In this document: piece after piece, positions 9,128 to 41,572 of the stretch | Numbering within the stretch: position 1 is the stretch's first letter | Layout of the letters: each line of letters begins with the position of its first letter | From: Bacteroidota bacterium | GTDB lineage: Bacteria > Bacteroidota > Bacteroidia > UKL13-3 | Reading direction: 5' to 3' | Length of the DNA stretch: 51,238 nucleotides | Assembly (NCBI GenBank): GCA_947507965.1 | Contig: CANNQU010000017.1 | Location: 1-51,238, forward strand | Notes under the pieces: model-generated | The model's input: only the letters and a program-made list of their open reading frames with translations | Databases searched by the model: none | Told to the model about the DNA's origin: nothing | Program-made: the position numbers and the translations under genes

Positions 9128-10432
9128 ATGAAACGTTTTCTTTTCACTGCTTTTTTTTCAACACTCGTCATTTTTGTGAGCGCACAAAATTATTGTATCA
9201 AGAACAGGTTCTCTTCGAGCTCGATGTTTACCGATTCGCAGATTGAGAAGGATACCAATATTGTGTATGCTGTGGCGAAGCATTGGAATAGTAATGTGAT
9301 GGATAGTTTACGCTTGGATATTTATTATCCCGGCGCTGCTGCCGAAACTTTATCCAAACGTCCGCTTATCGTGTTCGCTTTTGGGGGAGGATTTCTTGAT
9401 GGAAGTCGAAATGACTTCACTTTTTTCTGCAAGGAGTTCGCCAAGCGGGGTTATGTAGCCGCTACGATTGATTATAGGGTAGGATGGAATTGTGTAAATG
9501 GCACTGCTGCCTTACTTTGTTTGTGCAATGATTATATAAGTATGTACAATGCCGCTTATCGAGCTACTCAGGATTTTAATGCCGCGCTACGATTCCTGAG
9601 TTTCAGAAATACACAATATAAAATCGACACCAATTATTTTTTTGTTGGAGGTGGCAGTTCAGGAAGTATTACCGCGATGAATGCAGCCTTTACAAGCCAG
9701 CGTGAGATTGATTTGAAATTAAACTGGGCGCATACCCAACTAGGGGCACTCGACTCTTCTGGAAACACCTACCCCAAAAATTATAAGATTAGAGGGGTGC
9801 TCGATTTCTGCGGGGCTGTGTTCGACACTACGATCATGACCGACAACGCTGGTATTCCTATTGTGAGCTTTCACGATTCGCTTGATTGTGTTGTGCCAGC
9901 GTATCATGGTTATGTAATTAATTGTACCGGTAATTGTTATAACCTCTTTCCTGTTGATGGCTCTGGATTGATTTACAAAAAGGCTTTAAAAGAGGGCACT
10001 TGTGCTGAGCTGCATATCAATCCAGGCACTGCACATTGCGGGTCGAACCAAAATTATGTACTCACCCACGGCAGCTGTTTCTTAAAACGGGTGATGTGTA
10101 ATACCTGCAGTTCAACTCGTTACAGCAACCAGAGTCATATCGCCAGTTGCGACTCCTTGGTGGCAGGCAGTGGCATAAGCTCGGAGTATGGGAAAATTGA
10201 TTTTAGTGTTTCTCCGAATCCAGCGAGCACCGTTTTAAACTTTAAATTTGGTGAATCAGCAGGGTCATCGGTCGTTACTATTTATGATGCCCAAGGAAGG
10301 GAAGTGCTGAGTCAAGTGATGCTGGTAGGGTCTTTCGATTTACCCATCATTAATTTTAAGACAGGGATCTATTTTCTCCGTATACAATCGCTGAGCAGCA
10401 TCAGCTTGAGCAAGATTATGATTCAGCGATGA
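9128..10432 (+). CDS. Secreted alpha/beta hydrolase with type IX secretion sorting domain
   Basis: A 434-residue protein with an N-terminal signal peptide ending near S-A-Q (residue 20). The esterase/peptidase-like alpha/beta domain (about 45-340) has an F-G-G-G-F oxyanion motif at 85-89 and a nucleophile elbow G-G-S177-S-G in V-G-G-G-S-S-G-S. Many cysteines (for example C-L-C and C-N-T-C) suggest disulphides after export. The last 75 or so residues form a type A T9SS C-terminal domain: S-P-N-P, then V-T-I-Y-D-A-Q-G-R-E, then G-I-Y-F-L-R-I and a final K-I-M-I-Q-R. The protein is thus predicted to cross the outer membrane and be attached to the surface or released. The carbohydrate- or lipid-ester substrate is unknown. 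Confidence 0.87.
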   Translation: MKRFLFTAFFSTLVIFVSAQNYCIKNRFSSSSMFTDSQIEKDTNIVYAVAKHWNSNVMDSLRLDIYYPGAAAETLSKRPLIVFAFGGGFLDGSRNDFTFFCKEFAKRGYVAATIDYRVGWNCVNGTAALLCLCNDYISMYNAAYRATQDFNAALRFLSFRNTQYKIDTNYFFVGGGSSGSITAMNAAFTSQREIDLKLNWAHTQLGALDSSGNTYPKNYKIRGVLDFCGAVFDTTIMTDNAGIPIVSFHDSLDCVVPAYHGYVINCTGNCYNLFPVDGSGLIYKKALKEGTCAELHINPGTAHCGSNQNYVLTHGSCFLKRVMCNTCSSTRYSNQSHIASCDSLVAGSGISSEYGKIDFSVSPNPASTVLNFKFGESAGSSVVTIYDAQGREVLSQVMLVGSFDLPIINFKTGIYFLRIQSLSSISLSKIMIQR

Positions 10433-19746: not shown

Positions 19747-19778
19747 CCGTGTTTTTTTTTAAATTTACTTCAATGGAT

Positions 19779-20513
19779 TTATAAAAACCGGGTCTCCAGG
19801 TAATGAGGTAAGATGGCTCTCCAGGTAGGCCAGTCGTGTTTCCACTCTTTTCCCCAAACATCGAGCTCATAGGTGATTCCTTTATTATAGAGTACTCCTG
19901 CAAACTTTTTTGATGATTCAGAATCTTCAAAATCACCACTGCCGGTGACGATATGGATATGACTGCTTTTCTTTATGTTTTCGAGAATGGATTCATCCAT
20001 TAAATTTGGCAGGTATTGCATGGGAGAATTAAAATAAACCTGTTCATCATGATATCCTTTGGTGTATTCAGCCAAGTCGTAAACGCCGCTCATGGCAATT
20101 ACTCCATTGATTAGGTCGGGACGTTTTAAAAAAAGGTTCATGCTGTGGAGGGCACCAAACGAAGCGCCACTTAAAATTAGGGGCGTTTCTTCTGAGGTGT
20201 TTTTCCGAATGAAGGGTACTACTTCATTAAATATATAGTCATTGAACTGGTTATGCCGAATGGCTTTATGCTCGCCTGCCATCGAGCTGTTGAGCCAGCT
20301 CTCGTTATTGATACTGTTTACCGAAAAGACCTTTACTTTACCGTTGTTTATGAAGGGCGCCAAAGTGTCGATCATTTGAAAGCGCTCATATTCCAGGTAA
20401 TCGGCAGCAGCCGTAGGTACAAAAAGTAGTGCGAAGCCCGAATGGCCGTAGGTTACGATCGGCATTTCTTTTTGAAGGGCGGGGCTATGCCAGCTATTTA
20501 TTTCTCTGTGCAT
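19779..20513 (-). CDS. Esterase of the D-like/PF00756 family (alpha/beta hydrolase)
   Basis: A 244-residue cytosolic alpha/beta hydrolase similar to the putative esterases that include S-formylglutathione hydrolase and enterochelin esterase. The nucleophile is Ser118 in S-G-A-S-F-G-A-L-H-S. Asp in G-S-G-D-F-E and His in K-H-D-W-P-T-W complete the probable triad, and the latter block is typical of this family. There is no signal peptide. The ATG at 20513 is chosen over one 33 nt upstream because the upstream residues are not family-like. The substrate is unknown. It lies directly upstream of ccsBA on the same strand. Confidence 0.82.
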   Translation of the reverse strand: MHREINSWHSPALQKEMPIVTYGHSGFALLFVPTAAADYLEYERFQMIDTLAPFINNGKVKVFSVNSINNESWLNSSMAGEHKAIRHNQFNDYIFNEVVPFIRKNTSEETPLILSGASFGALHSMNLFLKRPDLINGVIAMSGVYDLAEYTKGYHDEQVYFNSPMQYLPNLMDESILENIKKSSHIHIVTGSGDFEDSESSKKFAGVLYNKGITYELDVWGKEWKHDWPTWRAILPHYLETRFL

Positions 20514-20546
20514 GATAATGTTTTTGCATTTAGTGGTATTATGCAA

Positions 20547-20947
20547 AGATGTTAAATTATTTAGAAATGGAGGAGGGGAATAAAAATCAATAAATATAAG
20601 TGATCAAATTAGGTTGTTCCCTATTTGATGTGCTGAAACGAATCACCAAGGTTTCCTCCCAGCCATTTTAATGTTTTCACCATCCTTTGATCTACTTTTG
20701 TATTTAGCCCTACCGGGGCGCCCTATTTGTAGCCAAGGGAGTTAGCCTGTATTAAGCACCGTAGGTGCGACCTGAAGATATCCTCAATCATACTAACGTT
20801 GCTAACGGTCGATAAATCCGAAAAAAACATTGAGCAGTAAATCATATACTGAATATCCTATCAAATTCAGCTTTCATATTATTAATATGATTCAGCTTCG
20901 TTTGTTATACTAAAATGTATTAATTTACCCTTTTTTAGAAAAACTAA
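20547..20947. other. Gene-free stretch before the caspase operon, with a structured repeat-like block
   Basis: No convincing ORF is seen. A block at about 20704-20780 stands out as GC-richer, with small inverted repeats such as GCACC-GTA-GGTGC (20756-20768) and GGGCGCCC. It resembles the short intergenic repeats scattered through some Bacteroidota genomes, but only one copy is in this window. The last 60 bp before the operon are very AT-rich and should hold its promoter, though no clean TAnnTTTG box was found. Confidence 0.5.
20704..20780. repeat. Candidate dispersed intergenic repeat (single copy here)
   Basis: The block contains several short palindromes (GCACC-GTA-GGTGC, GGGCGCCC) in an otherwise AT-rich gap. 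The style matches dispersed intergenic repeats known in this phylum from memory. Copy number outside the window is unknown. Confidence 0.3.
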
Positions 20948-20983
20948 ATGCAAGCGAGGAAATTCGATATTCATATAATGTGC

Positions 20984-21628
20984 ATGATAAAGCGCATGCT
21001 CCCTTTTCTAAATATACGAATGGGGCTTATCGCGGGTGTGCTGCAGTTTAGCTCCGCGATGGCGCAAACACCATTTCAATTGGCACCACAGCATCCGGCT
21101 CCGTACGATAAACGTTTTATTATTCCTGATATTAAGCAAGTTAACGTGATCACACTTTCTACTTTATTCTGTGTAGATTCTAAATCGATTTATAGAGACA
21201 AAGAAGCCGGGAATGTGGATACTGGATTAAATATTGGATTTGGACTGGGATACGCCAAAGCTCTTATTAACAGCGAGTACTACGGTTTGTTTGTGGGTGT
21301 AGGATACGAATATTTCCCTTCTAAGTATCAAAGCGTGAAATGTTTTTTTGAATATAAGTCGCCCTATTTTTTCAGGCATCAGAAAATAAAATACTTTCTT
21401 AAATACAAGAAGACTTTTCTTCCACAATTCGAGTTTATTTTTCCAAAATACGAGTACCTTTATGGCTGGGATGCAATGCACCAACATTGGACACAACAGC
21501 GATTTTATTTTCTTAATATACGATCCGGCATGCTCAATTTTAATTATGGTGTTCAATTCGGCACCGCATATCACGTATCATCTAATGTTTTTGAGCTTTC
21601 ATATAATTTATTTCCGAAAAAATGGTAA
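20984..21628 (+). CDS. Exported beta-rich protein, first gene of the caspase/VWA operon
   Basis: About 214 residues with a signal peptide ending in S-A-M-A-Q. The mature part is rich in Tyr, Phe and Lys, with alternating hydrophobic residues and a Gly/aromatic stretch (G-F-G-L-G-Y-A, G-V-G-Y-E-Y-F). The C-terminus is aromatic (F-E-L-S-Y-N-L-F). This suggests a small outer-membrane beta-barrel, although no family is recognised. The start is uncertain: ATG codons at 20948, 20978 and 20984 are in frame, and 20984 gives a signal peptide of normal length. Its stop overlaps the next start (ATGGTAA), so the two are translationally coupled. It is the first of four tightly packed genes ending with a WD40-caspase protein. 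Confidence 0.65.
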   Translation: MIKRMLPFLNIRMGLIAGVLQFSSAMAQTPFQLAPQHPAPYDKRFIIPDIKQVNVITLSTLFCVDSKSIYRDKEAGNVDTGLNIGFGLGYAKALINSEYYGLFVGVGYEYFPSKYQSVKCFFEYKSPYFFRHQKIKYFLKYKKTFLPQFEFIFPKYEYLYGWDAMHQHWTQQRFYFLNIRSGMLNFNYGVQFGTAYHVSSNVFELSYNLFPKKW

Positions 21629-22353
21629 AGAAATTTCTACTTATGGTTGGCTTCTTTTTAACGATGCCTTCGATGGCTCAACGCATCAGCAGCGGAATAC
21701 ATTTCGGAACGAATATTTATGAAATTTCAACTCGAAAAGAGTACTATCTCTTTCCCGATCCACAAAACACTTATAATGTTTACTATGGTCCCAAACGAAA
21801 CCGATTTCGAGGGGGCGGTTTCTCGCCAGGAGGCTATTTACAACTTGACTATAAGGCATTCCTTAGTGGCTTAGAAGTGAATCTGGTGAACAGGAGCTAT
21901 TTTGTAAAATGTTATTATATGATGGATAAATCGTTAGGTGATCGGGCCCTTGAATTTAAGGTAACACAACAAAACACCGAAATCAATTGGTTCTCCGGCC
22001 TCAAACTCTTGAAAAGAAATCGAAATGTTATTGTATACGCAGGCTTTATTTATGCTATTGTAAATAGTAATACAGAAGTAGGAAGAGATAACGAGAACAG
22101 TAATATATTGGGAAGAGTGTTTATGGGGAACAATGAGATGTATAATGTCATGTATAACGACCTTAATTTTTGGCGTTTGATGGGTGGTGTAGGTTATACT
22201 TGGAAAAACAGTATGCTCTCTCTTCGTTATGATTATCGTATCAATTCTGCGAGGGTAAAATTAACCAATGAAATTAGCAGCTTCAATCTTCATTATAATT
22301 TAACCTTAAATTTTCAGAAACTAAAAAAAGGCCATTTTATATTTCAGAAATGA
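21622..22353 (+). CDS. Exported beta-barrel-like protein, second gene of the caspase/VWA operon
   Basis: A 243-residue protein with signal peptide M-V-K-K-F ... P-S-M-A-Q. The body has repeated amphipathic beta-type strands (for example G-G-F-S-P-G-G-Y-L-Q-L-D-Y and W-R-L-M-G-G-V-G-Y-T-W) and ends with alternating strands rich in Leu, Tyr and Asn. This matches the general look of 8- to 10-stranded outer-membrane porin-like proteins of Bacteroidota. No specific family is recognised. It overlaps the previous gene by 7 nt and the next gene by 4 nt (ATGA). Its size is like its upstream neighbour but I see no close similarity between the two. Confidence 0.7.
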   Translation: MVKKFLLMVGFFLTMPSMAQRISSGIHFGTNIYEISTRKEYYLFPDPQNTYNVYYGPKRNRFRGGGFSPGGYLQLDYKAFLSGLEVNLVNRSYFVKCYYMMDKSLGDRALEFKVTQQNTEINWFSGLKLLKRNRNVIVYAGFIYAIVNSNTEVGRDNENSNILGRVFMGNNEMYNVMYNDLNFWRLMGGVGYTWKNSMLSLRYDYRINSARVKLTNEISSFNLHYNLTLNFQKLKKGHFIFQK

Positions 22354-23381
22354 AACAGACAACTCTCCTTATTCTTGTGGCTCTTTGCTTGGGCAATTGT
22401 AAAAAAAGTACGCAACCTGTGCGCAAGGCTTTGATTGGTGCCCCTACGGCTTTTGCACTCGGTACTCAATATATTTCCCACACCGATACCACTTTAATAC
22501 TGGAAATGAAAGTCGGCGTTTTTACCAGTCGCGACCGCGAGGTTACAACCCTCAACGATAGTGCGTTTCATTCCTGGCCTACGAGTAGCTTGGGTATTAT
22601 ATTTAACAAAATTGAGCAACACGAAGCACTATCGATGAATTCATTTTCTACTATCTTGGCTTTTGATCAATCGGAATCATACGCTCAATATGATCCATTT
22701 AATCAACGATTGAGGGCGGTTAATAAAGTGCTTCTGGATATGGAAAGCGAGTCAAAGAATGAATTCGGGCTCGCCTATTATAATCGATCCGACCTGTTCA
22801 AAAACAATTTAGAAATTCGAATCCGCGACGGAGGTAGCCCCTTTCAGGTATCTCGTGAGAGCTTATTAAAATGGCAGTTTTGGATGCCTGATTATGAGAA
22901 GGGGACCGCCAATATGTATGACGCTCTGTCGATGCTTATCGATACCGTTTCAACCTATGCCAGTAATAGCAATATGTCCATCACTGTTTTCATGCATGCC
23001 ATAGACGACCGTTTGGGTATTAACTATAAAACAATCATCAATAAGGCGATGGCTAAGAGAGTGAAAATTAATATCATTTCCCTCGACCCCATCAACAAGG
23101 AACTTTCTGAAATTAGCTGTCGTACTGGGGGCTTCCTGCATCTAATAGATCGCCGTACTGTTCTGGAGGTGATGGATAAAGGAGTACCTGCACTAACAAG
23201 TATACTAAAGACCCTGAGTGGCAATTTAAATATATATACTATCAACTTCACGGTAAGAAGAAGCTCTGGCACATTCTATAGTGGATATGTAGTGAATGAT
23301 TACCTTTTGCTACAGGAACATGATGCTGATGGCGAAGAGAAAATTTATAACCCTTTAGGATTTTATGTTACCATTCCATGA
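22350..23381 (+). CDS. Von Willebrand factor A domain lipoprotein
   Basis: A 343-residue lipoprotein; the leader ends L-G-N-C (Cys17). A VWA-like fold at about 98-270 carries all parts of a metal-ion-dependent adhesion site. These are D106-x-S108-x-S110 (D-Q-S-E-S after a hydrophobic strand), Thr186 in G-T-A-N-M-Y-D-A-L, and D219-D220 after the strand I-T-V-F-M-H-A-I. The following part has I-I-S-L-D-P and a helix ending T-G-G-F-L, as in late VWA strands. VWA lipoproteins bind other proteins through a divalent cation. The position between barrel-like proteins and an exported caspase suggests a scaffold or sensor of an envelope complex; that is inference. It overlaps both neighbours by 4 nt (ATGA junctions). 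Confidence 0.75.
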   Translation: MKQTTLLILVALCLGNCKKSTQPVRKALIGAPTAFALGTQYISHTDTTLILEMKVGVFTSRDREVTTLNDSAFHSWPTSSLGIIFNKIEQHEALSMNSFSTILAFDQSESYAQYDPFNQRLRAVNKVLLDMESESKNEFGLAYYNRSDLFKNNLEIRIRDGGSPFQVSRESLLKWQFWMPDYEKGTANMYDALSMLIDTVSTYASNSNMSITVFMHAIDDRLGINYKTIINKAMAKRVKINIISLDPINKELSEISCRTGGFLHLIDRRTVLEVMDKGVPALTSILKTLSGNLNIYTINFTVRRSSGTFYSGYVVNDYLLLQEHDADGEEKIYNPLGFYVTIP

Positions 23382-26300
23382 ATAAAGCCCAGTTTATTTT
23401 TTATTTCCTCCTGTTTTGCAACATCACTTTATGGACGCAAAGAGCCGAGCTTGCCATACAAAGAGGGCATTCGAATACCATTCGATTGGTTTCGTATTCG
23501 CCATCGGGTGAGCTGTTGGCCAGTTTTGGCGATGATAAGCAATTGGTTATTTGGGATGTAAGAAAAGGGAAAGAAATAAAATCAATTTCCTTAGGACAAG
23601 ACAACATCGATCAAATTGTTTTTAGTGCCGATAATCAGGGTGTCTTCATACGCCATACAGGCACGTATAGCTATTATAATATCGGTCGTTCGATTTTCGA
23701 AACATGGCCGAGTGTTGAAATTATAGCACGTAACCGCATGCATTATATTGCTTTGGATAACTTGTTTGAGGTGGTAATAAAAAATGCGAAACTTTATAAA
23801 AAGAAACCGAAGGAGAAAAAGAAAATCTTTCAGAAGTCGGCAGAATATTTTGATGAATATTTCACCGCTGTCGACGTATCGGTAGCGAACAATCTTATTA
23901 TTGCGGGCAATGATGATGGTAAAGTTTATTTGTTTAAACTCTCTAACGGTGCCAAAGTGCCAGACGCTACAGGCACTAAAAGGCGTACCTTAACAGGACA
24001 TCTTTCCAATATCACGGATCTGTGTTTTAGCCCCGACCAAAATTATTTTGCTACGGCAAGCGCCGATCGTTCCATCATTATTTGGAACACCAAAACGCTT
24101 CGAATTGAAAGAAGGCTCTACACCCAATCGTTTCGAAACTATGCGCTAGCCTTTAGCGATGATGGCAATAAGCTGGCAGTTGGAAATGAAATTGGACAAG
24201 TGAAACTCATCGACTTAGCATCCACCAATATTGCACTCATCAACTATCCTTTGCATATTCATCCGGTGAGCAAAATACAGTTCGATGGAAACGACAAGAT
24301 AATGACTTCAGGATATGATAATACCCTACGCATCACCGATCTTAAAACGGGGGAATCCTCTTTTGATTTACATTATCTCAAAGGCCTCACGATTCCTAAT
24401 TTAATCAATGGTTTTTTCGAGAAGGGGTTAAAGTACTATCGAAATCCATACAGTATAATTAAGACTTTCGACCACTCAAGACAGGGTCAATACCTTGCTT
24501 ATTCGGGGGTCACCAAAAGTAGAGACTATCCTATACTTCGAGTAGTTGATTTGCACTCTAAGAAGGAAAAACGTGTCGTGAAACAGGTGAAGCAAATTCA
24601 ATCGATTCGGTTTGTTAGTGACAGCACTTTCATTTCCTGCGATGGAAGCGACTCGATTTGTTATTGGACACTCCTTCGCAATAAAATTATTTTTAATACT
24701 ATTGTTTTACCAATCGAAGTAACCGATGTCGAAATTATCGATGCTCGTTACCTCCTGCTTCGAAATGGAAATTCTTTTTCTGTTTATGATGGTTTAAATA
24801 AGGTTATTATTGCTCAGTTACCCATTTTAAGCACCTGCTATACTTTTGATCGTGAAAGGGGACAATTATTGTTTGCTGATGTAAATTACTTGATTCATTT
24901 ATTCGACTTACGAGAGCACTCATTTCATGAAACAAAGGTTTTTCGTGGTCATAGCGATGAAGTACGATGCATTTCATTTCATCCCTCGAAAAACGTATTC
25001 GCATCGACAGGTTTCGATGCTTCCATAAAATTGTGGGATTTAGCTACTGGCGAACTCCTGGTATCCATTGTGCCCATTGGAAAAGACGACCGTATTGTAC
25101 TCACCGAAGAAAATAAATATCTCATCTCAAAGAAAAACCTCAATTCGGTTGGCTTCAAAGTGGGCACTTCGTTTTTCCTTGCCGAACAATTTGACATGGA
25201 ATATAATCGACCCGATTTGGTGCTCGAACGACTTGGTTTCACCGAACAGAAAACCCTTGATATCTATAAAAACGCCTATGTCAAACGATGGAAACGAATG
25301 AGTTATAGTGAGAGTGATACACTCCTTGCCGTGCCTAAGATAAGCCTCCTTAATGCCGACAGAATACCTATGGTGACGAAAGAAGATAAGGTAACCATAA
25401 AAATAAAGGCCACGGATGATCGGCTACGGTTAAAGCGGCTCTTAGTGGAGGTGAATAGCATCCCTATTTATGGTACTCAAGGTGTTGATTTAACGGCTTC
25501 GCAATCCCACGCCTGGGATACACTGCTTGAAATAAAACTATCACCCGGCATGAATAAAATTTCGGTGTCATGCATTAACGAGCAGGGCATTCAGAGTTAT
25601 CGTGAAAGTTTCGAGACCGAGTTTATTGGGTCGGTAGCAAAAAGTAAAATGTATTTTATTGGGTTAGGCGTGACACATTATCAGGATACGAATTTCAATT
25701 TAAAATATGCAGCAAAAGACATCTTCGATTTAGCCTCTGGGATTAAGAAACTGTATCCCGAAGCAAAAATTATTTTGCTTACCGATTCGGAAGCGACACG
25801 AGAGAATATCCTTAAGTTAAAGGAACAACTAATGCTGACGGGCATCAACGATAAAGTCATTATTTCGTTAAGTGGTCACGGAATTTTAGGGGATAAACTT
25901 GATTTTTATTATGCAACTCATGACATTGATTTTAGGCATCCCGAAATACGTGGACTGTTGTATGACGATTTGGAAAGTTTGTTTGATGGAATACCGGCGA
26001 GGAATAAACTACTCTTAGTGGATGCCTGTCATAGTGGAGAAATAGATAAAACATTGGATCTTAAGGTTGATGAAAAATCGGGAACTACGGCAGTCGCCAA
26101 TGGCAAGGTGAGTGTGCCCCGAGGAGCGGAGCTACTTGTTGACAGTAATAGTATCGGGATGCAAAATAGTTTTGAGTTGATGAAAGAAGTTTTTGCCGAT
26201 ATCAGCCATGGAAATGGCGCTGTTGTTATAAGTGCGGCAGGAGGGTTGGAGTACGCCCTTGAAAGTAACCGCTGGAATAACGGAGTTTTTACTTATGCTG

Positions 26301-26467
26301 TTTTGCAAGCATTGCAGGGGCGCAAAGCCGATTTGAACAAAGACCATAAGACAACCATCTCTGAATTAAAAAATTATGTAAGCGAGCAAGTGCAACGGCT
26401 CACCGGGGGGCGTCAGACACCAACCTCTCGAAGAGAAAATTTTGATTCCGATTGGATTCTGTGGTAG
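23378..26467 (+). CDS. Exported WD40-repeat protein with C-terminal caspase (C14) domain
   Basis: A 1029-residue protein. A hydrophobic N-terminal leader (about 1-20) suggests export. WD40-type blades follow: S-N-T-I ... V-I-W-D-V at 31-65, L-T-G-H-L-S-N-I-T ... I-I-I-W-N near 205-245, and F-R-G-H-S-D-E-V ... I-K-L-W-D near 520-560, with degenerate blades between. After a beta-rich linker (about 650-750), residues 755-1029 form a caspase-like peptidase. The catalytic dyad is intact: H834 in S-G-H-G and C884 in D-A-C-H-S-G. The protein ends F-D-S-D-W-I-L-W, the usual tail of bacterial WD40-caspases. It is the last gene of the operon, overlapping the VWA gene by 4 nt. Cleavage target and trigger are unknown. 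Most well-known bacterial caspases act inside the cell, so export makes this one notable. Confidence 0.88.
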   Translation: MNKAQFIFYFLLFCNITLWTQRAELAIQRGHSNTIRLVSYSPSGELLASFGDDKQLVIWDVRKGKEIKSISLGQDNIDQIVFSADNQGVFIRHTGTYSYYNIGRSIFETWPSVEIIARNRMHYIALDNLFEVVIKNAKLYKKKPKEKKKIFQKSAEYFDEYFTAVDVSVANNLIIAGNDDGKVYLFKLSNGAKVPDATGTKRRTLTGHLSNITDLCFSPDQNYFATASADRSIIIWNTKTLRIERRLYTQSFRNYALAFSDDGNKLAVGNEIGQVKLIDLASTNIALINYPLHIHPVSKIQFDGNDKIMTSGYDNTLRITDLKTGESSFDLHYLKGLTIPNLINGFFEKGLKYYRNPYSIIKTFDHSRQGQYLAYSGVTKSRDYPILRVVDLHSKKEKRVVKQVKQIQSIRFVSDSTFISCDGSDSICYWTLLRNKIIFNTIVLPIEVTDVEIIDARYLLLRNGNSFSVYDGLNKVIIAQLPILSTCYTFDRERGQLLFADVNYLIHLFDLREHSFHETKVFRGHSDEVRCISFHPSKNVFASTGFDASIKLWDLATGELLVSIVPIGKDDRIVLTEENKYLISKKNLNSVGFKVGTSFFLAEQFDMEYNRPDLVLERLGFTEQKTLDIYKNAYVKRWKRMSYSESDTLLAVPKISLLNADRIPMVTKEDKVTIKIKATDDRLRLKRLLVEVNSIPIYGTQGVDLTASQSHAWDTLLEIKLSPGMNKISVSCINEQGIQSYRESFETEFIGSVAKSKMYFIGLGVTHYQDTNFNLKYAAKDIFDLASGIKKLYPEAKIILLTDSEATRENILKLKEQLMLTGINDKVIISLSGHGILGDKLDFYYATHDIDFRHPEIRGLLYDDLESLFDGIPARNKLLLVDACHSGEIDKTLDLKVDEKSGTTAVANGKVSVPRGAELLVDSNSIGMQNSFELMKEVFADISHGNGAVVISAAGGLEYALESNRWNNGVFTYAVLQALQGRKADLNKDHKTTISELKNYVSEQVQRLTGGRQTPTSRRENFDSDWILW

Positions 26468-26499: not shown

Positions 26500-26928
26500 T
26501 TAGTCCTCTATGGCCTCAATACCTTGTTGCTTCAGTCGTTCAAGGTTATCCTTCATGGCCTTAAGTTGTTCGGGTGCGTGATGGGACCAGGCGGTCATCT
26601 CACCCATGATTTTAAGGGGATGCAGAGAACGGAATGATTTTGTTGGATTTCCCGGATATTTCTTGTCGGTTAGGTTGGGGTCGTCTTCGATAGGGCCTGT
26701 AGGCTCCACGATATAAATTCTTTCACGTGCTTCTCCAACGGCAAGTTCAGCCCCCCAAATAGCAGCATCCAAGGTGGCTGTAAGGTAAATATATTTCGCT
26801 TTATTTCCTTGTCCGTAATTCGAATTAAAACCAGGGTTTATAAAGTCTCCCTCATTCAAATTTGCTTTGGTGCCGTGAAAGAATTGTAGGGTACTTGTGT
26901 CGGGGGGCGGTTTTATTGATTTATCCAT
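26500..26928 (-). CDS. arr: Rifampin ADP-ribosyltransferase
   Basis: A 142-residue enzyme that inactivates rifamycins by transferring ADP-ribose from NAD+ to the 23-hydroxyl. It matches the mycobacterial Arr protein closely from memory: F-H-G-T-K, Y-I-Y-L-T, L-D-A-A-I-W-G-A-E-L-A, V-E-P-T-G-P, E-D-D-P-N-L-T-D-K-K-Y-P-G-N-P-T and a final I-E-D. With the ATG at 26928 the catalytic residues fall at H18, Y48 and D83, one less than the H19, Y49, D84 of the characterised enzyme. This supports the start over the ATG at 26949. The gene is convergent with the caspase gene, with only a 32-bp gap. Arr homologues are common in environmental Bacteroidota, so resistance is a plausible but unproven phenotype. 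Confidence 0.93.
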   Translation of the reverse strand: MDKSIKPPPDTSTLQFFHGTKANLNEGDFINPGFNSNYGQGNKAKYIYLTATLDAAIWGAELAVGEARERIYIVEPTGPIEDDPNLTDKKYPGNPTKSFRSLHPLKIMGEMTAWSHHAPEQLKAMKDNLERLKQQGIEAIED

Positions 26929-27025
26929 TCGTCTTTTTTTTAATGTCATTGCTGTCCACTTGATTGTTCATGATACCATTTCCGTATTAAAAGAGGGGTG
27001 CGAAACAGCAAAGGTGCTGCATTTT

Positions 27026-33940: not shown

Positions 33941-33981
33941 ATATGGAATTATTTGGAATCTCATTCCATATAATTCCATAT
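33941..33981. promoter_or_regulatory. 41-bp palindrome over the ATPase promoter
   Basis: Outer arms ATATGGAATTAT (33941-33952) and ATAATTCCATAT (33970-33981) are a perfect 12-bp inverted repeat. Inside them TTGGAAT and ATTCCAT pair again with one mismatch around a CTC centre. The result is four GGAAT half-sites about one helical turn apart. It runs into the -7 box TATCTTTG at 33979-33986, 4 nt before the ATG, so a bound dimer or tetramer would block transcription. It could instead act as an mRNA hairpin or a recombination site. Confidence 0.6.
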
Positions 33982-33986
33982 CTTTG
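33979..33986 (+). promoter_or_regulatory. -7 box (TATCTTTG) of the ATPase gene
   Basis: Fits TAnnTTTG; a TTTG at 33952-33955 could be the -33 element, though the 23-nt spacing is slightly long. The box is 4 nt from the start codon, implying a nearly leaderless mRNA if used. Confidence 0.45.
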
Positions 33987-33990
33987 TTTC

Positions 33991-35151
33991 ATGATTCAAC
34001 GCATTGCTAAAGTTAAGTTAATGGACCTAGCCACCAAATTTAAAGCAGTGGCAGTTACCGGTGCCAGGCAAACAGGTAAAACAACTTTAGTAAAACAAGT
34101 ATTTAAGGGTAAACCATATGTTTCATTAGAAAACCCTGACACACGTAACTTTGCCTTGGATGACCCTAGGGGCTTTTTACAGTCATACCCTCATGGTGCA
34201 ATTTTTGATGAAGTGCAACGTGCTCCGATATTGTTTTCCTATTTGCAGGAAATTTTGGACAATTCTAAAATAAAAGGATTATTTATTCTCTCAGGTTCAA
34301 ACAACTTTTTATTGCAGCAATCGATTTCTCAGACACTTGCTGGGAGAGTAGGGTATATAAATTTACTGCCCTTTTCCATTACTGAATTAATCAAGGCTAA
34401 ATTATTGCCGATGGATGATGATCGCTTAATGGTTAAAGGTTTTTATCCGCCAATTTATGACCAGCATATTCCACCCGAAGATTGGTGCCCCAATTATATC
34501 CGAACCTATATAGAAAAGGATGTAAGACAAATAAAAAACATAACAGATCTAATTGTTTTTGAAAGGTTCATAAAATTACTTGCCGGTCGCTCCGGCCAGG
34601 AATTAAATAATAGTGCATTAGCGGTAGAAACGGGTGTTGATGTTAAAACCATTCAATCATGGATAGGAATTCTGGAGAGTAGTTTCATTATATATCTTCT
34701 GAAGCCACATTTTAAGAATTTCAATAAAACGATTGTTAAAAGGCCTAAAGTATATTTTTATGATACGGCTTTGGTTTGTTACCTGCTAGGAATTCGAGAA
34801 ACTTCACAACTCATCACACATCCATTAAGAGGTTCAATTTTTGAAGGCATGGTTGTAACGGAATTAATTAAAAAAAGAACGAATGCGGGCTTGCCAATTA
34901 ATTTATATTATTGGAGGGATAAAACAGGGCATGAGATTGATCTCATCGTCGATAACGGAAGGACTTTATTACCCATTGAAATTAAATCGGGAAAGACGTT
35001 CAACACTGAATTTTTTAAGAATATTGACTATTGGTGCAGGTTAAGTGGAAGCGAACAATCCATTTTGCTGTATGCCGGTGACCAAAATCAGAAAAGAAGT
35101 AGCGGCAAAGAGATATTGAATTGGAAAAAAATTATGACTAGAGAGCTATGA
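33991..35151 (+). CDS. AAA+ ATPase with C-terminal DUF4143 domain
   Basis: A 386-residue protein of the AAA_14/DUF4143 family. The Walker A motif is G-A-R-Q-T-G-K-T-T (near residue 26-34) and Walker B is A-I-F-D-E-V-Q-R-A (near 71-79). L-S-G-S-N-N is the sensor region. The DUF4143 part (about 170-386) has the PD-(D/E)xK-like block Y-Y-W-R-D-K-T-G-H-E-I-D-L-I-V followed by L-P-I-E-I-K-S-G-K, so a nuclease-like fold is likely. Biological roles of the family are unknown. I chose 33991 over the ATG at 33943, which would lie inside the promoter palindrome. The gene stands alone between a tRNA-Glu and a decayed copy of its 3' end, as if brought in by integration. Such ATPases are often mobile and multicopy. 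Confidence 0.88.
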   Translation: MIQRIAKVKLMDLATKFKAVAVTGARQTGKTTLVKQVFKGKPYVSLENPDTRNFALDDPRGFLQSYPHGAIFDEVQRAPILFSYLQEILDNSKIKGLFILSGSNNFLLQQSISQTLAGRVGYINLLPFSITELIKAKLLPMDDDRLMVKGFYPPIYDQHIPPEDWCPNYIRTYIEKDVRQIKNITDLIVFERFIKLLAGRSGQELNNSALAVETGVDVKTIQSWIGILESSFIIYLLKPHFKNFNKTIVKRPKVYFYDTALVCYLLGIRETSQLITHPLRGSIFEGMVVTELIKKRTNAGLPINLYYWRDKTGHEIDLIVDNGRTLLPIEIKSGKTFNTEFFKNIDYWCRLSGSEQSILLYAGDQNQKRSSGKEILNWKKIMTREL

Positions 35152-35251: not shown

Positions 35252-35265
35252 AGTAGCCCGTAGGG
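35252..35265. other. Candidate attachment-site copy in the intact tRNA-Glu 3' end
   Basis: This 14-bp sequence is identical to 33568-33581 and covers the acceptor-stem end of tRNA-Glu. Tyrosine recombinases usually integrate at tRNA 3' ends and leave such a direct repeat at both borders. Confidence 0.5.
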
Positions 35266-35325
35266 GAGTCGAACCCCTCTTTCCAGGATGAAAACCTAAC
35301 GGCCTAACCGATAGCCGAACGGGCC
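35254..35325 (-). tRNA. tRNA-Glu (anticodon TTC)
   Basis: A 72-nt cloverleaf on the minus strand. The acceptor stem is GGCCCGT with ACGGGCT (G1-U72 wobble) and A73 as discriminator. The D-arm has GGC and GCC with the TATCGGTTAGG loop. The anticodon loop is TTTTCAT, giving TTC. The T-arm is GGGG-TTCGACT-CCCC. CCA is not encoded. It is followed by a hairpin terminator. The 3' end is duplicated at 33568. Confidence 0.95.
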
Positions 35326-35378
35326 CTCTTTTTTAAAGGAGTGCAAAGGTATAATAATACCTCTAAATTGCAAATATA

Positions 35379-35411
35379 TTTGGAATATTACTATTTTAAA
35401 ATTTAACTTTG
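35379..35411 (+). promoter_or_regulatory. Promoter of gap: TTTG ... TAACTTTG
   Basis: TTTG at 35379-35382 and TAACTTTG at 35404-35411 are 21 nt apart, close to the Bacteroidota -33/-7 arrangement, 63 nt before the gap start codon. Confidence 0.65.
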
Positions 35412-35450
35412 CACCGTTTTAATACATTTCTTATTTTTTTTTATTCATAA

Positions 35451-36464
<1,014 letters not shown>

Positions 36465-36483
36465 TTTTTCGATATCCTAAAAC

Positions 36484-36520
36484 AAAAAGAGCCGTTAATT
36501 ATTTAAACGGCTCTTTTTTT
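36484..36520 (+). terminator. Intrinsic terminator of gap
   Basis: AAAAAGAGCCGTT pairs with AACGGCTCTTTTT and is followed by T residues, 20 bp after the gap stop. Confidence 0.85.
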
Positions 36521-36594
36521 ATTGAAAATCTTCCGAATATAAGTTTTTAATCAAACAAGATAATTGCTTTTCCAACTTAATACTAAATACCCTC

Positions 36595-36900
36595 ATGCGT
36601 TACGCTCAACATATATTCATTTGCACCAATCAGAAGCCGGAAGGTACTAAATGCTGTGGAGAGGAGCGAGGCATGGAACTTGTAAAAGAGTTTCGCAGGC
36701 AACTCGCCGAACGTGGTTTGAAAGGTACGGTAAGGGCGCAGCGCTCGGGGTGTCTGGATGCCTGTGCCTTGGGCCCATCACTGGTTATTTATCCGGAAGG
36801 AATCTATTATGGACATGTAACCATTAAAGAGGTAACCCGAATTATTGACGAACACATTATTACGAATAAAGTGGTGGAAGACTTAGAACTGAAATTCTAG
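36595..36900 (+). CDS. Thioredoxin-like [2Fe-2S] ferredoxin domain protein
   Basis: A 101-residue protein of the thioredoxin-like ferredoxin family (as in NuoE-type and Clostridium pasteurianum Fd). The likely cluster ligands are Cys10 and Cys20 or Cys21 in the first half, and Cys53 and Cys57 in S-G-C-L-D-A-C-A-L-G-P. These match the C-x(10-12)-C and C-x3-C spacing. Y-P-E-G-I-Y-Y-G-H-V is the conserved strand near the C-terminus. It is probably an electron carrier, with partners unknown. It is a single-gene unit after the gap terminator. Confidence 0.85.
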   Translation: MRYAQHIFICTNQKPEGTKCCGEERGMELVKEFRRQLAERGLKGTVRAQRSGCLDACALGPSLVIYPEGIYYGHVTIKEVTRIIDEHIITNKVVEDLELKF

Positions 36901-36973
36901 TTGACCGTATTACCTTGACCGTCTTGCTCTTGGGTTGGATGCCTAGCAAATTATTTATGGTGTGCTTTTGAAG

Positions 36974-37010
36974 TAAGGGAGTTCCTAATTCTGGTGTCGT
37001 ACCTCCCTTT
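36974..37010. terminator. Weak inverted repeat between convergent genes
   Basis: AAGGGAG and CTCCCTT form 7-bp arms across a 21-nt loop, between the ferredoxin and scoB stops. The large loop makes it a weak terminator candidate. Confidence 0.3.
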
Positions 37011-37017
37011 AGCTTCG

Positions 37018-37671
37018 TCAAAAAACCATCTCCTTCACGTCGTCGGCAATAACCAAACGGCCGGCAACATTTTTCTTGACGTCATCCACCGTTACGCCCG
37101 GGGCGAGCTCTACGAGCTTGAAACCTTCAGATGTGATATCATACATCCCAAATTCGGTTACCACTTTTTTAACACATGCCAAGCCGGTGATGGGCAATTC
37201 ACATTTTGAAAGCATCTTACTTACTCCGGCTTTATTTACTTGCTGCATCGCAACAATAATGTTTTTGGCCGAAGCTACCAAGTCCATCGCACCGCCCATA
37301 CCTTTTACCATCTTCCCCGGTATTTTCCAGTTGGCAATATCGCCGGTATCGGAAACTTCCATGGCACCCAGCACGGTCAAATCTACTTTTCCTGCCCGTA
37401 TCATGCCAAAACTCATGGCACTATCGAAGAAGGCAGAGCCCGGTAAGGTAGTGATGGTTTGTTTTCCTGCATTAATTAAATCGGCGTCCATTTTATCCTC
37501 AGTAGGGAATGGGCCCATTCCAAGCAACCCGTTTTCCGATTGCAGCACAACCTCCACACCATCGGGAATATAGTTAGCTACCAAGGTAGGGATGCCTATG
37601 CCGAGGTTGACATAGAAGCCATTCTGAAGTTCTTTTGCGATACGCTGGGCAATTTGTTCTTTGGTGAGCAT
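37018..37671 (-). CDS. scoB: 3-oxoacid (succinyl/acetoacetyl) CoA-transferase subunit B
   Basis: A 217-residue beta subunit of a class I CoA-transferase that moves CoA between succinyl-CoA (or acetyl-CoA) and a 3-oxoacid. N-L-G-I-G-I-P-T-L is the conserved start. The catalytic Glu46 in Q-S-E-N-G forms the glutamyl-CoA intermediate. P-G-K-M-V-K-G-M-G-G-A-M-D-L-V follows. I chose the ATG at 37671; residues upstream of it come from a low-complexity repeat array. The A subunit normally lies just upstream in an operon, but here the upstream DNA holds repeat arrays and a four-helix-bundle gene, so scoA must be elsewhere. Confidence 0.92.
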   Translation of the reverse strand: MLTKEQIAQRIAKELQNGFYVNLGIGIPTLVANYIPDGVEVVLQSENGLLGMGPFPTEDKMDADLINAGKQTITTLPGSAFFDSAMSFGMIRAGKVDLTVLGAMEVSDTGDIANWKIPGKMVKGMGGAMDLVASAKNIIVAMQQVNKAGVSKMLSKCELPITGLACVKKVVTEFGMYDITSEGFKLVELAPGVTVDDVKKNVAGRLVIADDVKEMVF

Positions 37672-37680
37672 GGTTGTGGG

Positions 37681-37735
37681 AGTATTTAGTTTAGAGTATT
37701 TAGTAGGTAGTACAGCGTATTTAGTAGAGAGTATA
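37681..37735. repeat. Short repeat array, GTATTTAGTA type (inverted relative to the other two)
   Basis: Several imperfect copies of AGTATTTAGT occur here. They are the reverse complement of the ACTAAATACT units at 37805-37860 and 38306-38338. The array forms the leader region of scoB. Confidence 0.7.
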
Positions 37736-37804
37736 AAAAAGAAAACACACAAGGTAAGCTTGTAAGCTATATTCTATCCATTAGGTTGGTACACCACATC
37801 ATTC

Positions 37805-37860
37805 AGTACTAAATACTAAATACTTAATACTATGCACTAAATACTATGTACAAAATACCA
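37805..37860. repeat. Short repeat array, TACTAAATAC type, at the 3' side of the four-helix-bundle gene
   Basis: Four or five imperfect copies of TACTAAATAC with slight length variants run up to 10 bp from the stop of the four-helix-bundle gene. It is in the same orientation as the array at 38306. Confidence 0.7.
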
Positions 37861-37869
37861 ATTACTCCA

Positions 37870-38208
37870 TTAAGCCCCAAGACGCCTTGCCAAATTCACA
37901 TTCATCCTCTTGATATAGGCAAGCCTTTCAAACAAAGAACCTGACTCGTCATTTTTAATGTAGCCTAAGCGTTCTGCTATTATTAATTGGGTTTCTAGCT
38001 CGCAACATGAACCAGCCGAAATACTTAGAAAATTAATAAATTCTTTATTCCCTTTCCTGCCAGCGCCTTCTGCGATATTTGACGGAATTGAAACGCTACA
38101 TCTTCTTATTTGTGAAGTAAGAGAGTATAGCTCTTCTTTAGGAAAATTCCTTGTCAATCGATAAACATCTCCTACTAATTCAATTGATTCTTTCCAAATT
38201 TCTAACAT
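37870..38208 (-). CDS. Four-helix-bundle protein, 23S rRNA intervening-sequence (IVP/S23) type
   Basis: A 112-residue all-helical protein. The centre has the family motif S-I-P-S-N-I-A-E-G-A-G-R-K (about 40-52), followed by E-F-I-N-F-L-S-I-S-A-G-S and E-L-E-T-Q-L. This is the TIGR02436 four-helix bundle, first seen encoded in intervening sequences of spirochete 23S rRNA and related to the Avd protein of diversity-generating retroelements. The biochemical role is unknown; related proteins bind nucleic acid. The gene sits alone between scoB and floA, bracketed by TACTAAATAC arrays, so it looks like a small inserted unit. No reverse transcriptase or variable-repeat gene is near. Confidence 0.9.
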   Translation of the reverse strand: MLEIWKESIELVGDVYRLTRNFPKEELYSLTSQIRRCSVSIPSNIAEGAGRKGNKEFINFLSISAGSCCELETQLIIAERLGYIKNDESGSLFERLAYIKRMNVNLARRLGA

Positions 38209-38305
38209 TTAGTAATTATTCATAAGTAAATATCGCTTGTTTTTATTAAGCCTTTTAAGTTTCCATCACACTCACCAATAATCACTATCAAATCCAAATA
38301 CTTCG

Positions 38306-38338
38306 CACCATGTACTCTGTACTAAATACTAAATACTC
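38306..38338. repeat. Short repeat array, TACTAAATAC type, at the 5' side of the four-helix-bundle gene
   Basis: Direct copies of TACTAAATAC with one TACTCTG variant. The block matches that at 37805-37860 in sequence and orientation, so the two arrays bracket the four-helix-bundle gene as direct repeats. Confidence 0.7.
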
Positions 38339-38350
38339 CACTTCGCTCCC

Positions 38351-39316
38351 CTATTTCTTCGGCGGGTTCACGATATTCTCCCGCATGGTGGTATCGGCTT
38401 TAATATTTTGCATTTTGTAATAATCCATGATGCCGAGGTTGCCACTTCTAAAAGCGTCGGCGATGGCCATCGGTATCTGTGCTTCTGCTTCAATTACTTT
38501 AGCACGGGCTTCCTGAGCCAGCGCTTTCATTTCCTGCTCCGAAGCCACGGCTGCAGCACGGCGTTCTTCCGCTCTGGCATTGGCCACTTTTAAATCAGCT
38601 TCGGCCTGATCGGCTTGTAATTTCGCACCTATATTTTCACCGATATCGATATCGGCGATGTCGATACTTAATATTTCAAAGGCAGTACCTTGGTCGAGAC
38701 CTTTGGCTAATACCGTTTTTGATATTTTATCAGGGTTTTCCAATACTTCTTTATGGTCATGCGCTGAACCAATGGTGGTAACAATACCCTCGCCAACACG
38801 CGCCAGAATGGTTTCTTCGCCTGCTCCACCAATCAGCTGATTGATGTTGGCACGAACCGTAACACGAGCTTTCGCTACCAATTGAATGCCGTTCTTTGCT
38901 ACTGCCGCCACCGGGGGTGTATCGATAACTCTTGGATTTACCGATAGTTGAACTGCATCGCTTACATCACGGCCAGCCAAGTCGATGGCTGTGGCGAGTT
39001 TGAAGTCGAGAGGGATGCTTGCCTTATCGGCGCTAATGAGGGCACGTATTACATTATTTACATTTCCTCCAGCCATAAAATGGGTCTCTAAATCGCTGCG
39101 GGTGATATTCAGACCGGCTTTAGTTGAGGTGATTAAGGCATTAACAATCAATGTAGGTGGTACTTTACGTAATCGCATCGCGAAAAGCTGACCAATGCTC
39201 ACACGAACGCCGGAAACCAAGGCGGTAATCCATAGTCCTACCGGGATATAATAAAGGAAAAGGGCAATAAAAATGATTCCTATTGCAATAATAAAGAGGT
39301 AAAATGGCTGTTCCAT
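38351..39316 (-). CDS. floA: Flotillin-like protein FloA
   Basis: A 321-residue membrane protein of functional microdomains. One hydrophobic helix at about 5-30 anchors it. The SPFH-type core follows ([20 protein letters not shown]), then a long Ala/Glu-rich coiled coil (about 230-295; [16 protein letters not shown]). The sequence and length are those of Bacillus FloA (YqfA). In the family it gathers signalling and transport proteins into lipid domains. No nfeD-like partner gene is adjacent. The gene ends only 13 bp beyond a TACTAAATAC array, so the array lies in its 3' region. Confidence 0.95.
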
Positions 39317-39534
39317 GATGGGATAATTTTATTTTAAATTATAAGGTGTAAAATTAATAAAAAATGCACTATGAAATACGGAAATAAATAGCAGACAAAG
39401 AAATACGCAGAGCGAATACCCCTTTTCAAAATTGCAGGTTTTTTAAATGAGTTGACGAAGCTTCTATTGAATGACCGTTCTATAATTATCCATTAAAAGC
39501 ATCGATTAGATGAGGGTTGGGTTGAAAAATAATT

Positions 39535-39542
39535 TATATTTG
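39535..39542 (+). promoter_or_regulatory. -7 box (TATATTTG) for the panD operon
   Basis: Fits TAnnTTTG and lies 8 nt before the panD ATG, implying a very short leader. Confidence 0.5.
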
Positions 39543-39550
39543 TAACTTCT

Positions 39551-39919
39551 ATGCAAATACAGGTTTTAAAATCAAAAATTCATCGGGCACGTGTAACGCA
39601 AGCCGACTTGAATTATGCCGGCAGCATAACCATTGACGAAGATTTAATGGATGCCGCCAATTTAATTGCCAATGAGCGTGTTCAAGTGGTCAATAATAAT
39701 AACGGTGAGCGGCTGGAAACCTATGTTATTAAAGGCATGCGGGGCAGTGGGGTGATTTGTTTGAATGGGGCTGCGGCACGTCGTGTTCAGGTCGGCGATA
39801 TTTTAATTGTGATGTCGTATGCTTTTATGACGCCTGAAGAAGCCCGAATTCATTTACCACTATCCGTTCATCTGGAAGAGAGAAAAAATGTAATAAGTTT
39901 CGAAAAGAATGAAGATTAA
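39551..39919 (+). CDS. panD: Aspartate 1-decarboxylase
   Basis: A 122-residue pyruvoyl enzyme that makes beta-alanine for pantothenate and CoA synthesis. Self-cleavage occurs between Gly24 and Ser25 in Y-A-G-S-I-T-I-D, and the downstream N-G-A-A-A-R block holds active-site residues. Length is normal. It is first in an operon with a flippase-like protein (11-nt overlap) and rfaE2. As I recall, this panD - lysylphosphatidylglycerol-synthase-like - rfaE2 order recurs in Bacteroidota. Confidence 0.95.
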
Positions 39920-40928
39920 AAAAAGTTTCGCTTATGTTCTATTCTTTGGTATAAGTGTTTTCTTGCTTTATCTTACTTTTAAAAATACGGAGTTCTCTAA
40001 AATACAAGCGAGCGTTGGTTCGCTGCATTGGGAATTTGTTTTTGCGTGTTTCGCGATTACCCTAGGGGCTCACTTTTTACGTGCATGGCGATGGAAACTT
40101 TTGCTTGAGCCGATGGGGTATAACGCCCGCCTGCGCACTAGCTTCTACGCTGTTTTAATTGGTTATTTAACGAATTATGCGATTCCTCGTGGAGGAGAGT
40201 TGGCCCGCTGTGGCGTTATGTTTGGCACCGATAAAATTCCGGTAGATAAGTTATTGGGAACGGTGGTTACCGAGCGTATCATCGACCTGTTGCTGTTGTT
40301 TGTGATTTTTATGGTGACGCTGTTTTTAGAATTCTCTACGATCAATGACTTTCTAAAATTGGATCAATTATGGTTGCTTCATCATTATTTTATTTATGTT
40401 TTACTTGCTGCCGGGTTCTCTCTTCTAGCGTTTTCTTTGGTTTTTAGAAAAACGATCGCACAATTCAAATGGGTTAGAAAAATTATTGATTTTCTAAAGG
40501 GCTTTAATGAAGGCTTACTCAGTGTGTTTAAAGTTAAGAATCAGCCTCTATTTTGGATTCAGTCAATTGGTATTTGGGTTGGATTCTTTTTTATTAATTA
40601 CACTTTTATGCATGCAATGCCGATGACCGAGAATTTACCGGCAAAAGTTGTTTTAGTGGTGTTGGCTATGGGAGCGGTTGGCTTTGCTATTCCAACACCA
40701 GGTGGTGCGGGGTCCTATCATTACATTATAAAAATGACCTTGGTATTTTATTTTATTAAAGCCGGGGTATCCGATGCCGATGCGGAGTCTAATGCGGTGG
40801 CGTATGCACTCGTCTCACATACTGCCCAAGCCGCCTTCATTGCGTTGGCAGGTAGCATAAGCCTTTACCTTGCCTTTATTGAGCGTAAAAAAGTTTCCTA
40901 TGAATCATCAACAACAGTTACAAAATAA
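39909..40928 (+). CDS. Lysylphosphatidylglycerol synthase transmembrane/flippase-like domain protein
   Basis: A 339-residue inner-membrane protein with about eight transmembrane helices. The family motifs are visible: F-L-R-A-W-R-W in the first loop, [11 protein letters not shown], and the late [14 protein letters not shown]. It matches the membrane half of MprF (UPF0104), without the cytosolic aminoacyl-transfer domain. Stand-alone members are thought to move lipids across the bilayer; the substrate is unknown. It overlaps panD by 11 nt and rfaE2 by 29 nt, a sign of tight translational coupling. Confidence 0.88.
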
Positions 40929-41391
40929 AATTTATTCTCTTGAGTCATTACTCCCTGTTGTATTGCAATGGAAGCAAATGGGGCATAAAATTATATTTAC
41001 GAATGGCTGTTTCGATTTATTACATCCCGGCCATATCGATTACCTTTCCAAAGCCTCCGACCTGGGTGATCAGCTTATTGTAGCATTAAATACCGATGCC
41101 TCTGTGAAGAAATTAAAAGGGGCGCACCGACCCATTCAAAAGGAGCAGTCGCGTTTATATCTAATGGCAGCATTGGAATGTGTGAGTGCGGTGTTTTTAT
41201 TTGATGAAGAAACACCACTCGATGTGATTTCAAAGATTCTTCCCAACGTACTGGTTAAAGGGGGCGATTATACGTTGGATAACATTGTTGGAGCGAAGGT
41301 GGTTATTGAAAATGGGGGAGAAGTGACCGTTATTCCGTTTCTCGAAGGTTATAGCACCAGTATCCTAGAGAAAAAAATAAAAGAAGGATAA
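40900..41391 (+). CDS. rfaE2: D-glycero-beta-D-manno-heptose 1-phosphate adenylyltransferase
   Basis: A 163-residue nucleotidyltransferase corresponding to the C-terminal domain of HldE. F-T-N-G-C-F-D-L-L-H-P-G-H contains the HxGH ATP-binding motif. V-K-G-G-D-Y and E-G-Y-S-T-S are the later family motifs. It makes ADP-heptose for lipopolysaccharide or S-layer glycans; the kinase domain would be a separate gene elsewhere. The start at 40900 overlaps the previous gene by 29 nt and matches the family N-terminus better than the ATG 30 nt upstream. Confidence 0.92.
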   Translation: MNHQQQLQNKIYSLESLLPVVLQWKQMGHKIIFTNGCFDLLHPGHIDYLSKASDLGDQLIVALNTDASVKKLKGAHRPIQKEQSRLYLMAALECVSAVFLFDEETPLDVISKILPNVLVKGGDYTLDNIVGAKVVIENGGEVTVIPFLEGYSTSILEKKIKEG

Positions 41392-41572
41392 TCTGAAATT
41401 GGAGTTTTGCTCTACCGCATTTTTATCTCTTCATTATTCTAAATAGTAAAGATAAGATTAATGCCATCCAAAGAGCAAAAAACGTTTAATGAAGATCGCT
41501 AGGCGAGAAAAACATTTTTTTTATTCTTGATCTTTTCCTTTAACTTTCCGTTTTAAATCCAATCCATCTACC

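Follow-up and report, generated by a model that had tools for sequence, protein, structure and literature searches.

Among the proteases of Bacteroidota, the gingipains (family C25) are exported clan CD enzymes that cleave after Arg or Lys and are secreted by the type IX secretion system (T9SS) with a C-terminal sorting domain, and bacterial relatives of caspases are mostly discussed as cytoplasmic effectors of defence or cell death. Here we describe a four-gene operon (g1 to g4) in a stretch of 51,238 nucleotides (nt), referred to as the window, from a Bacteroidota bacterium (UKL13-3; assembly GCA_947507965.1, called G000 below; contig CANNQU010000017.1), in which g4 encodes an exported-type WD40-caspase and follows genes for a putative outer-membrane barrel protein (g2) and a VWA lipoprotein (g3). 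WD40-metacaspases as such were already known, with 73 counted in a 2012 survey, and in the part of that survey considered here they have, like g4, the C14 His/Cys dyad fused to WD40 repeats and S1 residues of the basic-P1 type; as here, there are several copies per Bacteroidota genome, some of them in operons with surface genes (PMC3501461). The same part of the survey describes neither a cassette of barrel, VWA lipoprotein and WD40-caspase nor a conserved Arg/Lys in the linker. A search of the open literature for the gene set, which did not extend to subscription papers, found no description of the cassette, and g2-g3-g4 is apparently undescribed so far.

Other described systems resemble the operon in part. 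The gingipains belong to a different peptidase family than g4, have no WD40 repeats and are not encoded in an operon with barrel and VWA genes. The beta-propeller type of the MoxR-vWA ternary conflict systems combines VWA and propeller components, as is the case here, but it needs a MoxR AAA+ ATPase (PMC7159879), whereas no AAA+ match was found by Pfam in the four genes and all of their products have export-type N-termini. PG1058/PorE of the T9SS, also from Bacteroidota, is a precedent for the export of a WD40-type propeller to the outer membrane; unlike g4, PorE has TPR, CRD and OmpA domains, has no caspase and belongs to the T9SS (PMC5053529).

The four open reading frames (ORFs) overlap by 7, 4 and 4 nt on the forward strand, just where the initial annotation had placed them, and the export signals that it reported were again seen as export-type N-termini upon inspection of the sequences. 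Pfam recognized WD40 and Peptidase_C14 in g4 and gave no significant match for g1 to g3, scans of the four proteins against NCBIfam and PADLOC added no named system, and a promoter and terminator scan did no better than shuffles.

20948..21628, + strand: g1, 226 amino acids (aa), exported-type, fold unassigned; the slot varies across lineages
21622..22353, + strand: g2, 243 aa, outer-membrane beta-barrel-type family
22350..23381, + strand: g3, 343 aa, VWA lipoprotein
23378..26467, + strand: g4, 1029 aa, exported WD40-caspase

To place the operon among its relatives, the genome_contigs collection was scanned with an alignment of the g4 C-terminal region, which yielded 307 related stretches; the counts below refer to the best 77 loci, mostly from Bacteroidota. 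Besides a near-identical copy, there are ten among these 77 loci in which the gene immediately before the WD40-caspase belongs to the g3 family (in L071, g2 separates the two), and G194 adds one more, so that the association claimed for the window genes holds well outside their own genome: g2-g3-g4 or g3-g4 occurs in eleven further loci beyond the genus. Holders include Cytophagales (Chryseosolibacter histidini, Flammeovirgaceae, Cyclobacteriaceae) and Bacteroidales. Because profiles that include their own members are circular, each profile was rebuilt without one lineage at a time, and these leave-one-lineage-out profiles still recovered g3 (E 3e-12 to 2e-52) and g2 (E 5e-6 to 5e-19) upstream of WD40-caspases; the window's own g3 and g2 were recovered at E 6.5e-42 and 6.5e-16. 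In lineages whose g3 proteins share 16-27% identity, the genes keep the order g2-g3-g4, and their ORFs overlap or nearly do so.

By contrast with the trio, g1 was recovered in no other lineage by the leave-one-out profiles. Since g1 is thus not recognizably homologous across lineages, the quartet of the initial annotation has to be reduced to a trio: judged by these profiles, the conserved unit is g2-g3-g4, while g1 varies, as does an additional lipoprotein of about 150 aa that some lineages encode upstream. Our own earlier g1 profile matches, from which g1 had been considered part of the conserved cassette, proved circular and were discarded. In a tree built from the C-terminal domains of 97 g4 proteins, cassette-bearing caspases fall in at least five separate branches, and the cassette state needs eight changes, at least five of them forced by supported branches, a pattern that would fit either an old cassette that was often lost or repeated assembly or transfer. 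A phylum-wide search with the g3 profile gave, beyond its own genome, no match with a WD40-caspase cassette among those whose surroundings were inspected, including the strongest (G475, 4e-31), and no g3 was found in the plasmid collection.

In g4 the Pfam matches are 2.3e-37 for WD40 and 2e-10 for Peptidase_C14, the latter (PF00656) scoring 41.2 bits against a curated cut-off of 21.4, and the AlphaFold2 model has a mean predicted local distance difference test (pLDDT) score of 81.6 and a predicted template modelling (pTM) score of 0.70.

23447..25126, + strand: g4 WD40 region, about two beta-propellers (residues 24-583), from Pfam, the model and structural matches
25337..25669, + strand: g4 beta-rich domain between propellers and caspase (residues 654-764), from the secondary structure of the model
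25667..26434, + strand: g4 Peptidase_C14 domain (residues 764-1019), from Pfam
25718..25720, + strand: g4 D781, putative S1-pocket Asp, likely counterpart of Asp95 in TbMCA2
25877..25879, + strand: g4 catalytic H834
26021..26029, + strand: g4 D882 (putative S1 Asp) and catalytic C884
26033..26206, + strand: g4 p20/p10 linker (residues 886-943), mostly disordered in the model (pLDDT <50)
26120..26122, + strand: g4 R915, candidate autoprocessing site

The caspase dyad that had been recognized behind the WD40 blades, H834/C884, is invariant in 97 of 97 relatives, as are the two putative S1-pocket aspartates, D781 and D882, which align with those of AtMC4. With a C14 domain above the cut-off, the His/Cys dyad and the acidic S1 residues, g4 has the features of a Peptidase C14 orthocaspase of the metacaspase type. 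In the metacaspase TbMCA2 the acidic S1 residues are Asp95 and Asp211 (PMC4357240), and from its own acidic residues g4 is predicted to cleave after Arg or Lys. Within the otherwise variable linker, 92 of 96 relatives have R or K at the position of R915, followed mostly by G, S or A, usually Gly; a [KR]G pair is present in 45 of 55 linkers, as against 21 in shuffles. R915 is therefore a candidate autoprocessing site of the kind expected for a basic-specific caspase. Nearly all full-length relatives of g4 have hydrophobic N-termini that end, by inspection, at AQ/Q-type cleavage sites. A search of g4 for a T9SS sorting domain gave no match at E up to 1, while the tail model did find another window protein (9128-10429), which served as positive control.

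In structure searches the propeller region matched WD40 propellers with Z up to 29.6, and with whole g4 the list was filled by WD40 proteins and was uninformative on the caspase part. The top match of the propellers is the WD40 part of Apaf-1 (Z 29.6, rmsd (root-mean-square deviation) 2.6, 281 residues aligned), in which, as may also hold for g4, propellers are linked to caspase control; Apaf-1, however, is a protein of its own, cytosolic and equipped with NB-ARC and CARD. Many other WD40 proteins tie with it, and the similarity is one of the shared WD40 fold, with no sign of functional kinship.

The window g3 on its own gave nothing convincing against Pfam, but its assignment as a VWA domain is supported by its family, in which three of 12 members match PF00092 (best 1.8e-5) and whose profile matches solved VWA domains in the PDB (TRAP 4hql, 1.2e-5; integrin alpha-M, 4.5e-4). 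All five residues of the metal ion-dependent adhesion site (MIDAS) that had been assigned to it are present, and they are kept in a second quartet described below.

22398..22400, + strand: g3 Cys17, putative lipidated cysteine (CKKSTQP), in a column conserved as Cys in relatives
22665..22679, + strand: g3 MIDAS DxSxS (D106, S108, S110), from sequence and alignment
22905..22907, + strand: g3 MIDAS T186, from the alignment
23004..23006, + strand: g3 MIDAS D219, from the alignment

Upon inspection, g3 and its relatives have a lipobox-like site at Cys17. The K-(D/E)2 lipoprotein surface-export motif (LES) defined for Capnocytophaga (PMC5080379) is absent from the window g3, and L059, L091 and L094 begin CKREEE, CKKQEE and CKKEEE; because of these K-(D/E)2-like starts, the side of the membrane on which g3 lies may differ between lineages. 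The Bacteroidales-type cassettes (L059, L062, L091, L094) are also headed by a small conserved lipoprotein (ORFs of 152-167 aa) that is absent from the window and, in L094, has no Pfam match.

The initial annotation had seen two barrel-like proteins in g1 and g2, and only the second of these finds some support. Five of 11 g2 family members match PF13568 (OMP_b-brl_2; best E 3e-4). For g1, neither Pfam nor NCBIfam gave a family match and AlphaFold2 produced a low-confidence meander of seven strands (pLDDT 41.5), on account of which a barrel fold of g1 is unproven. A comparison did not show g1 and g2 to be related, and a count of amphipathic strands did not separate either from shuffles.

Taken together, the linkage of the genes beyond this genome, the export-type N-termini and the lack of a T9SS sorting tail on g4 make a joint role in the envelope the simplest reading of the operon, and, like the initial annotation, we infer one envelope complex in which the caspase cleaves a target. 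More specifically, we favour, with moderate confidence, a reading of g2-g3-g4 as an extracytoplasmic regulated protease module, in which an Arg/Lys-specific caspase zymogen is coupled to an outer-membrane protein and a VWA lipoprotein that serves as receptor or adaptor. The observations behind it are the linkage and recurrence of the genes, their domain content, the invariant dyad with the acidic S1 residues and the basic residue in a disordered linker. In such a module g4 would be secreted to the periplasm as a zymogen of the orthocaspase/metacaspase type, its two propellers acting as a docking or sensing platform; the barrel protein g2 would hold it at the outer membrane, and g3 would present or respond to a ligand. 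The trigger may be contact at the surface, damage to the envelope or a ligand that reaches the barrel; the caspase would then be activated by cutting its own p20/p10 linker at R915 and would cleave at least one protein of the envelope on the C-terminal side of Arg or Lys, most likely for surface or envelope remodelling. This suggests that, in Bacteroidota with the cassette, a caspase switch operates in the envelope and not in the cytoplasm. If so, extracytoplasmic proteolytic signalling would join the roles of bacterial caspase relatives, and the module offers concrete handles in its predicted processing site (R915), its predicted P1 preference, its defined partners and a species in culture, Chryseosolibacter histidini, that carries a homologous cassette (L055).

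Several points weigh against the regulated module. First, the initial annotation had named rarity of the four genes together as evidence against itself, and the outcome is divided: about 66 of the 77 loci with a WD40-caspase have no VWA partner (11 have the cassette), which means that the caspase family can do without g3, yet the cassette recurs in separated lineages. Second, although the window, L021, L055, L050 and L058 keep an intact DxSxS, L053 and L051 have it in altered form, and the Bacteroidales-type clade (L059, L062, L091, L094) and L071 have lost the MIDAS; a metal-dependent ligand site thus cannot be the general mechanism. Third, position -1 of the g3 lipobox is Asn, which is unusual, and the barrel nature of g2 depends on weak Pfam matches of its relatives, the window g2 itself matching none. 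Fourth, one of the two retrieval patterns (DACHSGE), used for part of the set, favours intact active sites and covers C884 and D882 (though not H834 or D781), and the conservation of R915 hangs on one MAFFT alignment. Finally, export (from signal-like N-termini), complex formation, outer-membrane docking, proteolysis, autoprocessing, activation trigger, substrate and purpose are all inferred in this reading.

The invariant active site and predicted basic P1 preference would also suit a constitutive maturation protease that processes exported proteins such as surface lipoproteins or T9SS cargo, with g2 and g3 delivering substrate and no sensing involved. The retention of a barrel partner in part of the family and the presence of T9SS cargo in this organism are consistent with this, but the conserved basic site in the linker points to a regulated zymogen, and several relatives per genome with patchy presence are a poor fit to housekeeping; we consider it rather unlikely.

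Known bacterial defence systems include some that use caspases, and the operon might alternatively be an envelope module for defence or cell death, its barrel and VWA proteins sensing phage adsorption or attack and its caspase killing the cell or disabling the receptor. A weak PADLOC match of g4 (caspase, 2e-6), the patchy presence of the quartet (two of five genomes of the genus) and the different surroundings of the esterase-quartet block in two species speak for it. Against this, the products look exported, the operon holds no pore-former or other killing partner, and no defence gene adjoins it among the ten neighbouring genes scanned with PADLOC, whose one strong match, to PDC-S01, is 7.5 kb away near a contig join described below. 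That g4 match is one of weak partial matches only; g1 to g3 have none, and the operon corresponds to no system defined in PADLOC. Nor were T9SS genes found beside the operon, so that neither setting that the initial annotation had thought worth looking for, defence island or T9SS locus, was found around it. We consider a defence role rather unlikely as well.

Much less probable still is a loose neighbourhood without joint function, in which members of a common exported WD40-caspase family happen to lie beside common exported genes; the many family members without g3, the lack of conservation of g1 and the relatives that g2 and g3 have elsewhere would all fit, but the shared order and tight ORF spacing at such low g3 identity do not. 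Least probable is a nutritional peptidase digesting external proteins in the manner of gingipains, which the clan CD membership, Arg/Lys-type S1 prediction and Bacteroidota host would allow, but which the missing T9SS tail, the large propeller scaffold and linked genes that encode a barrel protein and a VWA lipoprotein rather than uptake functions make hard to maintain.

WD40-caspases also occur with other partners. A g2-type barrel gene lies beside the WD40-caspase on the same strand in 24 of 82 ORFs, a descriptive count, as the iterative search itself drew on members of the set and the loci were chosen for holding a caspase. The g2 profile aligned with that of the single barrels next to other WD40-caspases over 223 columns (E 1.5e-6). 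Two-gene units of a barrel-type protein (250-262 aa) and a WD40-caspase (about 1010 aa) occur in L069, L077, L079, L083, L084, L088, L115 and L118, frequently accompanied by a second related gene on the opposite strand. In L101, L102 and L104, a lipoprotein whose sequence contains a 'GPEGGxINFYANYDND'-like motif and a barrel-type protein of 273-276 aa precede the caspase, and in L087 the partner lipoprotein has BNR repeats. A CHASE2 gene lies upstream of the caspase in L098; CHASE2-domain-like and small FecR-like genes were seen upstream in L098, L106 and L071, by eye except for the CHASE2 of L098. Because related barrels are paired with different lipoproteins, the system looks modular, and we tentatively suggest, with somewhat less confidence than we place in the g2-g3-g4 module, a wider scheme of extracytoplasmic caspase signalling, in which a core of barrel and exported WD40-caspase zymogen, autoprocessed at the linker Arg/Lys, would be combined with exchangeable lipoprotein sensors (VWA, BNR-repeat or 'GPEGG').

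A second full quartet is found on contig C41 of G000, with g1 to g4 62, 85, 76 and 79-80% identical to those of the window and with the same divergent esterase beside it (82% DNA identity). The surroundings differ, only esterase and quartet (19778-26466) being common to the two at 77-82% DNA identity.

19779..20546, - strand: divergent esterase (Pfam Esterase), which accompanies the quartet within this genus only

Across window bases 70-35266 the DNA matches, at 99.5-99.9% identity, the complete contig CAIUDH010000094 of the metagenome-assembled genome Kiruna3_bin-3834, which represents another species of the same genus, and other loci common to G000 and this genome are only 75-79% identical. 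There are two lepA genes in G000 (C17, C18) and one in each of four relatives, and contig C18 holds the orthologous lepA/tyrS block at 74-80%. To the right of a tRNA-Glu gene (35253-35325), window bases 35330-51238 are G000's own, with a single dnaG that is 82% identical to the relative's, and CAIUDH010000094 ends within the same tRNA-Glu. The simplest reading of these comparisons is a chimeric window contig whose left part was joined near tRNA-Glu (about 35.2 kb), a 35-kb transfer into the tRNA being a possible alternative. The window quartet probably belongs to the Kiruna3_bin-3834 species, with the C41 quartet as the counterpart in the G000 species; as the contig appears mosaic, each species probably has one of the two 'copies' seen in the assembly. 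A paralogous duplication within one genome, considered because g4 is 79% identical at C41, was for the same reason dropped as unsafe. Six more WD40-caspase-type proteins, none with the cassette, are encoded in the 3.4-Mb G000 on C49, C2, C44, C39, C111 and C31 (L022-L027), that on C31 being only weakly similar.

Directly downstream of the operon, on the opposite strand, lies a gene for an Arr-ms type rifampin ADP-ribosyltransferase (26500-26949, - strand; match 4e-48). The match to PDC-S01, a candidate phage-defence family, is an AAA_14/DUF4143 ATPase gene (33943-35151, + strand; PADLOC 5.5e-95) that adjoins the join and tRNA-Glu.

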